In this document: piece by piece, positions 7,484 through 59,476 of the stretch
How the letters are laid out: each line of letters opens with the position of its first letter
How positions within the stretch are numbered: position 1 is the stretch's first letter
From: an uncultured Desulfobulbaceae bacterium
Lineage (GTDB): Bacteria; Desulfobacterota; Desulfobulbia; Desulfobulbales; BM004
Length of the DNA: 64,000 nucleotides
Direction of reading: 5' to 3'
Assembly (NCBI GenBank): GCA_945787325.1
Contig: CALZHP010000002.1
Span: forward strand, 1 to 64,000
Made by a program: the position numbers and the translations under genes
Notes under the pieces: model-generated
Database searches by the model: none
The model's input: only the letters and a program-made list of their open reading frames with translations
What the model was told of the DNA's origin: nothing

Positions 7484-8074
7484 ATGTGCACACTGGTAAC
7501 TAAAGAGGCGCCGGATTTCACAGCCCAGGCTGTTATGCCTGATAATTCAATTGATGAACTTACCCTATCATCATACAGAGGGAAATACGTAGTCATCTTT
7601 TTTTATCCGCTCGATTTCACCTTTGTCTGCCCATCAGAGATCCTGGCTTTTAACAGGGCTTTAAATGAATTCAAGAAGAAAAATACTGAAGTTATCGGTA
7701 TTTCGGTGGATTCACAATTCACTCATTTAGCCTGGAAGAATACCCCGATTAATCAGGGTGGAATCGGTGATATCCAGTTCCCACTTGTCGCTGATCTCGA
7801 TAAGAAAATATCGGACGAATACGGCGTTCTGATAGAGGACGGTATTTCCCTGCGGGGACTTTTTCTGATCGATAAAGAAGGCGTCATAAGGCACGAAGTT
7901 GTTAACGACTTGCCCTTGGGAAGAAATACAGAAGAAGCCCTGCGCATGGTAGACGCTTTACAGTTTTTTGAAGAGTACGGCGATGTGTGCCCAGCCAATT
8001 GGAAGCAGGGCGAAGAGGCAATGACACCAACGGCAGAAGGCGTTGCCGACTATCTGGCCAAACATACAAACTGA
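7484..8074 (+). CDS. 2-Cys peroxiredoxin (AhpC/Prx family)
   Basis: FYPLDFTFVCPSEI peroxidatic Cys motif and VCPANW resolving Cys; RBS aggagaaa. Confidence 0.95.
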   Translation: MCTLVTKEAPDFTAQAVMPDNSIDELTLSSYRGKYVVIFFYPLDFTFVCPSEILAFNRALNEFKKKNTEVIGISVDSQFTHLAWKNTPINQGGIGDIQFPLVADLDKKISDEYGVLIEDGISLRGLFLIDKEGVIRHEVVNDLPLGRNTEEALRMVDALQFFEEYGDVCPANWKQGEEAMTPTAEGVADYLAKHTN

Positions 8075-8675: not shown

Positions 8676-9143
8676 TTATTTTTTCAGGATTTCCGGCCAG
8701 TTACGGTCGGCCATTTTAATGTTCCCATTCATGTCCTGCGACCAGCTTTCCTGCACTTTCTCGTTAAGATTCAGGTACAGTCTGCCATCAACTATCGACC
8801 AAAGTGATGGATCTATATCAGCCGTGGTCCCACGGCTCACAGCGAAGGCTCAGTAGCCTCCGTAGCGGGGCGCATATTTTTCAGGGTCATTTTTAAAAAG
8901 GCTTAGATGCTCTGCATTGACAAAATGCCATTTGGCTCCGTTCCATTTATGCTCAAATTCACTGCTACCTTTTACCGGTTTTCCCTGTGTAAAATAAGCG
9001 ACAGTGTCATAACCCTTCATAGCTACTCCATTAGAATCTACATTAACTGGCTGTAGGGTTTTTGGCGAACAGCCCATAAGATTGAACAAAAAAAAGCCTA
9101 AAGTAACAAGAAAAGCTCTGGTGTACATTTGTCTCTTTTTCAT
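8676..9143 (-). CDS. YHS-domain lipoprotein, candidate selenoprotein (in-frame UGA at 8850-8852 read as Sec)
   Basis: ORF stops at YGGY*, but the same frame continues AFAVSRGTTADIDPSLWSIVDGRLYLNLNEKVQESWSQDMNGNIKMADRNWPEILKK to TAA at 8676. The UGA replaces the Cys of YGGYCA(F/Y)AVS in homologs as I know them. SECIS-like hairpin follows. Lipobox LMGC. Confidence 0.82.
8820..8837 (-). promoter_or_regulatory. Candidate bacterial SECIS hairpin AGCCGUG-GGAC-CACGGCU
   Basis: 7-bp perfect stem with GG opening the apical loop; loop lies 20-23 nt after the UGA. Confidence 0.75.
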
Positions 9144-59020: not shown

Positions 59021-59476
59021 TCATATTCCTGTGTGGCCGAACCCCCCTTCCTGGCGGACGGTTTCATCGAGAGAATCGACAACAGTCAGCTTGGCCCTGT
59101 TAACCGGGGCCAGAACAAGCTGGGCAATACGATCACCCCGATTAATTGTAAAAGTTTGATTGCCGAGATTTATCAGTCCGATTTTTACTTCTCCCCGGTA
59201 ATCAGAATCTATGGTTCCAGGCGCGTTGATTACCGTGATTCCATGTTTAATAGCCAGACCGCTTCGCGGCCGTACCTGTATTTCATGTCCGGCTGGAATA
59301 GCAATAGCAAATCCGGTCGGAACCATTGTTATTTCACCGGGTGAAAGGGGGAGGGGTAAGTCAATTGCAGCCGCAACATCCATGCCCGCGGCCTCATCAG
59401 AATGGTATAAGGGAAGCGGCAGATCCTTTGCGGATTTCTGGTTGAGCCAGCAGAAGTTTACCGTTATATGATTCAT
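59021..59476 (-). CDS. dut: dUTP diphosphatase
   Basis: [48 protein letters not shown]. Confidence 0.96.

Follow-up and report, generated by a model that had tools for sequence, protein, structure and literature searches.

Comparative evidence for a bacterial SECIS hairpin behind the in-frame UGA of a YHS-domain selenoprotein gene

A gene on the minus strand of the DNA stretch analysed here (the window, 64,000 nucleotides from an uncultured Desulfobulbaceae bacterium) carries a UGA at codon 98. A standard-code annotation would end the protein at residue 97, and the second half, which begins at this codon, would be lost if the UGA were a stop. This raises the question of whether the codon is read as selenocysteine (Sec), and whether a hairpin just behind it, noticed as SECIS-like in a preliminary description of the sequence, is the element involved. 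Judging from sequence comparison, the hairpin is very probably a bacterial SECIS (bSECIS) of a YHS-domain selenoprotein mRNA, with Sec inserted at UGA98 in place of release. This reading is supported by membership of the NF041384 family, a UGA at an invariant Cys and complete Sec machinery, and further by a hairpin found in every UGA homolog but nearly no Cys homolog, with synonymous conservation confined to it. Coordinates are collected in Table 1.

Table 1. Features of the putative YHS selenoprotein gene and its hairpin (window coordinates)
Feature	Position	Strand	Basis
Putative YHS-domain selenoprotein gene, 155 residues if UGA98 is Sec, TAA stop	8676..9143	(-)	translation; NF041384 match at residues 40-151
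In-frame UGA (predicted Sec98), invariant Cys position of the family	8850..8852	(-)	Cys or UGA in every aligned homolog
N-terminal signal segment, lipobox-like LMGC, Cys25 probable lipidation site	9069..9143	(-)	sequence reading; similar C-S motifs in orthologs
First YHS half (about residues 45-95), invariant Asp46	8859..9009	(-)	PF04945 at 48-93 just under cut-off; 9d2f repeat match
Probable second YHS/L24e-like half (about residues 96-155), begins at Sec98	8679..8858	(-)	model, weak structure matches, half-vs-half profile match
Predicted bSECIS upper stem-loop AGCCGUG-GGAC-CACGGCU	8820..8837	(-)	sequence, fold, no synonymous change in codons +5 to +9
Apical loop GGAC, opening with two Gs, 20-23 nt past the UGA	8827..8830	(-)	

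On the minus strand, the sequence 3' of the UGA (8852-8850) is GCCTTCGCTGTG AGCCGTG GGAC CACGGCT, the codons from 8852 being TGA GCC TTC GCT GTG AGC CGT GGG ACC ACG GCT GAT. The 5' arm (8837-8831) and the 3' arm (8826-8820) form seven pairs, all Watson-Crick, and the loop starts 20 nt after the UGA; the perfect 7-bp stem and GGAC loop of the preliminary description are exact, positions included. The hairpin is present in the MFE fold (-18.1 kcal/mol, z -2.38 versus dinucleotide shuffles). The published bSECIS rule specifies a loop of 3-9 nt, a stem of 4-16 bp, G in the first two loop positions, a loop 16-37 nt from the UGA and an MFE of at most -7.5 kcal/mol (PMC13188914), and the hairpin agrees with it throughout (4 nt, 7 bp, GG, 20 nt, and -15.8 kcal/mol for the 45 nt 3' of the UGA).

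How often such a structure arises by chance depends on strictness. The two strands of the window together hold 2445 TGA triplets. A rule-type stem of 7 bp or more (with one G-U permitted and a loop of 3-8, 16-37 nt from the TGA) lies behind 1.7% of them, and an all-Watson-Crick 7-bp stem with a loop of 3-6 at 16-26 nt behind 0.16%. When the peptide is recoded with the codon usage of the window, a rule hairpin of at least 7 bp appears in 0.9% of draws. With chance at about 0.2-2%, the hairpin taken alone is suggestive as SECIS evidence. Its conservation in relatives makes a chance origin untenable. An Rfam scan of the window gave two tRNAs only and no SECIS family match, which says little because bSECIS elements differ greatly in sequence.

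The protein matches the NCBIfam family NF041384, 'YHS domain-containing (seleno)protein', with 171.7 bits against a cut-off of 70. Its alignment covers profile positions 2-113 of 113, with the UGA at the Cys column. The gathering threshold of Pfam YHS (PF04945) is not reached (29.7 versus 30.3 bits, E 6.6e-7, residues 48-93), and by Pfam alone the protein would be only a relative of the YHS domain, because its score is just below this threshold. Residue 98 is the last position of a GxU motif (YGGYU) and is Cys or UGA in all aligned homologs. Five columns are invariant among 40 aligned homologs (D46, F74, F83, P92 and C/U98), and therefore the UGA falls on an invariant Cys. Export as a lipoprotein is likely because of the lipobox-like LMGC at the N terminus.

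The genome encodes tRNA-Sec (75.3 bits, cut-off 47), together with selA (614 bits), selB (373.5 bits) and selD (333.5 bits), each above its family cut-off. The selD gene has an in-frame TGA of its own, in the motif CGUAAK, with the hairpin CCGACA-GUUC-UGUCGG behind it, and this combination is an internal positive control. This selD gene (L059, G000:C2:77530-78456) is on the window's own contig. selA was found in 10/10 other UGA genomes searched and likewise in 15 of the 19 Cys-form genomes searched, so that its presence alone is weak evidence. The frame, open through the UGA, would also suit an ordinary amino acid inserted through a global code change or near-cognate suppression, with the hairpin unrelated, but this can hardly be credited. 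TGA terminates 20 of the 53 non-overlapping window ORFs of at least 100 aa, among them dUTPase-like and PntA-like frames that stop where such proteins normally end (families recognised from sequence), and since ordinary window genes end in this way, TGA is not globally reassigned. All non-UGA homologs have Cys at the position, tRNA-Sec and SelB are present, and no conserved genes of the genome broken by TGA at non-Cys columns were seen. Further selenoproteins were sought among the TGA-ended window ORFs of at least 100 aa; in the five whose frame stays open longest past the TGA, this codon looks like an ordinary stop. A dUTPase-like ORF (59021-59476, minus strand) ends in TGA, and a metallo-beta-lactamase-fold-like ORF lies downstream in frame with it; the pair was rejected as a candidate, as it looks like two ordinary genes.

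Homologs were sought in relatives, the phylum and the class, the class-level set comprising 257 genomes and being identical to that of the order. The first UGA clade consists of the window's own gene (L011) and six further orthologs with one TGA (L009, L010, L012-L015), and a second clade of four orthologs (L071-L073, L080). The TGA is at the same codon in all UGA homologs, including a frameshifted copy. That copy (L033/L044, G089:C151:10990-11324), from another family of the phylum, has its TGA where Sec is expected, with a rule-type hairpin behind it; the reading frame shifts immediately past the TGA, and the copy is either a broken gene or an assembly error. A contig scan added three Cys-form homologs; one more match, only partial, was too weak for use.

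In the first clade, the hairpin GCCGTG-GG(T/A)C-CACGGC is present in 7/7 members, three of which also have the seventh pair. Among these seven genes, the hairpin codons (+5 to +9) are identical in 99/99 synonymous comparisons, compared with 676/1359 outside codons +1 to +12, and codons +3, +4, +10, +11 and +12 vary freely. This limitation of synonymous conservation to the hairpin is the strongest single result. As judged from the codons, the hairpin is under RNA-level selection, because they are invariant though the peptide does not require them. Several hairpins have competing MFE folds.

These comparisons bear on two further explanations. The first is that the UGA is a real stop, produced by a nonsense mutation, an assembly error or a decaying pseudogene, with the hairpin coincidental. 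The assembly is fragmented (144 contigs), and a chance hairpin at the above frequency is not vanishingly rare; however, the identical codon occurs in ten intact relatives, which with the window's genome represent three families of the order, the protein is conserved beyond the UGA, and only the hairpin shows synonymous conservation. A real stop is thus very improbable, and is in practice refuted by the independent orthologs. The second is that the stem is conserved through protein-level constraint on SRG(S/T)TADI rather than as RNA. This peptide hardly changes across the first UGA lineage, but the explanation is extremely unlikely. The motif is written in unchanging codons, whereas the Ala, Val, Asp and Ile codons on either side vary freely; the Cys homolog L078 spells SRGTTADI in different codons and lacks the hairpin; and a second lineage retains the hairpin with another peptide. 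L078 (G613:C19) is a partial sequence in which almost the same peptide follows the Cys, and is possibly a Sec-to-Cys reversion.

In the second clade, the peptide after the UGA differs (ARNLATAGKVAGVNP) and the hairpin is CCGGCA-AGGU-UGCCGG, except in L080, where it is CACCGGCA-AGUC-UGCUGGUG; the loop is 26 nt from the UGA. Comparison of the hairpin across related YHS genes, as had been proposed, thus reveals an equivalent hairpin made of different bases in another UGA lineage. In a loop-anchored alignment, which favours structure, 92.9% of cells pair, versus 75% when shuffled and at most 60% when slid. Cells changed on both sides number 12, versus 3.7 in shuffles, and the score is 0.54, versus at most 0.09 when slid. 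The stem hardly varies within the first clade, and between the clades 4/7 pairs change on both sides. The pair changes correspond to about one event between two clades, indicating that the form of the hairpin was kept, not that many independent compensations took place.

When one rule is applied throughout (a perfect stem of 6 bp or more in which one pair may be G-U, loop of 3-8 nt with G in the first two positions, 16-37 nt from the codon), a hairpin is found in 12/12 UGA homologs versus 3/39 Cys homologs (Fisher p ~1e-8 for 11 UGA homologs, the frameshifted copy left out, a value that overstates independence because the rows are related). Orthologs with the UGA but no hairpin, which would have counted against a SECIS, were sought, and there are none among the 12. 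In the tree, the UGA genes form two separate groups with three state changes (2-3 in bootstraps), although the two groups may derive from a single origin followed by losses.

It could also be supposed that the UGA ends one protein, that the second half is a separate ORF (starting, for example, at a GTG four codons on) and that the hairpin regulates reinitiation or termination. The UGA is indeed near the boundary between two YHS-like halves. However, the Cys homologs are single continuous proteins, the hairpin that accompanies the UGA is lacking in nearly all of them, the sequence before the GTG is without an evident ribosome-binding site, and the structure model is one compact fold (AlphaFold2, pTM 0.80). 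Two separate products are accordingly a highly improbable outcome of this locus.

With the hairpin read as a bSECIS, the G-bearing apical loop of the stem-loop would be bound by SelB carrying Sec-tRNA-Sec when the UGA occupies the A site, and Sec would enter at position 98 instead of release. The product would be the full 155-residue protein, presumably exported and probably lipid-anchored, in which Sec98 would take the place of the family's invariant Cys.

The model of this protein is confident (pLDDT 93, with about 98 in the second half). Residues 36-93 superpose on the YHS-like repeat of 9d2f (VIA-align Z 8.0, 1.8 A over 58 residues). Residues 95-155 have weak matches (Z at most 4.5) to the region of toluene monooxygenase holding its YHS domain and to apparent L24e-type ribosomal chains; these could reflect a common arrangement only. 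A PDB sequence search with the single protein gave no match and a Foldseek search none at E <= 0.001; with the profile, PDB gave weak hits to YHS-like repeats of axonemal proteins and to toluene monooxygenase. The profiles of the two halves align end to end over 53 columns and pair GYD46 with GYC98 (score 18.3); 1/100 column-shuffled controls scored as high, over a short stretch. The model and profiles suggest that a YHS-like fold has been duplicated, with Asp46 and Sec98 as equivalent positions of the two copies, and D46 and U98 would correspond to the first YHS/TRASH metal-ligand position. This ligand is Cys or Asp, and YHS domains often have Asp there (PMC4626032). As a hypothesis, Sec98 would have a metal-binding or redox role, its selenolate acting, probably together with Asp46, in transition-metal binding or redox chemistry. 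As the mature part contains no other Cys, it has no classical CxxU or UxxC redox pair. The combined proposal, that a duplicated YHS/TRASH fold with equivalent Asp46 and Sec98 forms an envelope selenolate-carboxylate transition-metal (or redox) site, and that Sec and SECIS were acquired at least twice, is a tentative one, and doubtful as a whole.

A YHS domain protein (OS) has previously been listed as a selenoprotein (PMC2398784), and the family is also listed in PMC9312934 and, as NF041384 with the motif GxU, in PMC13188914, which cites Zhang and Gladyshev 2007. Reviews trace it to that study and to an Olavius algarvensis symbiont (PMC2398784, PMC9312934, PMC13188914). As the family is already published as such, which the preliminary description did not mention, the gene is a further member of a known selenoprotein family, from which it differs in nothing of kind: the profile match is full-length, there is a single Sec at GxU (here GYU), and other members have Cys. 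The hairpin likewise resembles the bSECISearch consensus in loop size, GG at positions 1-2, 7-bp stem, spacing and stable fold; the difference is that this one protein family has two sequence-unrelated hairpins, sequence divergence among bSECIS elements being normal (PMC13188914). In its first half the protein shares the YHS fold with YHS/TRASH metal-binding domains (the adenylyl cyclase YHS of Mycobacterium phlei, PMC4626032; toluene monooxygenase; L24e), where Asp at the first TRASH metal ligand is common too (PMC4626032). It differs in missing the further conserved Cys ligands, with one Sec only in the mature part, in its probable export and in its two YHS-like halves.

The present analysis contributes the conservation evidence, the recognition of two lineages of the hairpin, and a confident model that suggests a protein of two YHS-like halves in which the invariant Asp46 and Sec98 match in position. 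This provides strong comparative evidence for a selenoprotein family that reviews list without function. Its SECIS is under RNA-level selection, has two forms unrelated in sequence, and distinguishes UGA members from those with Cys. Should the duplicated fold prove true, Asp46 and Sec98 are a testable site for YHS selenoprotein function.

A conserved neighbourhood was sought in loci of about 3 kb; the window neighbours recur beside none of the same-clade UGA orthologs, and gene context therefore gives no function. Seen beside none of the UGA orthologs, a 2-Cys-type peroxiredoxin gene (Cys, not Sec; 7484-8074, plus strand) is separated from the YHS gene by about 600 bases and is encoded on the other strand.
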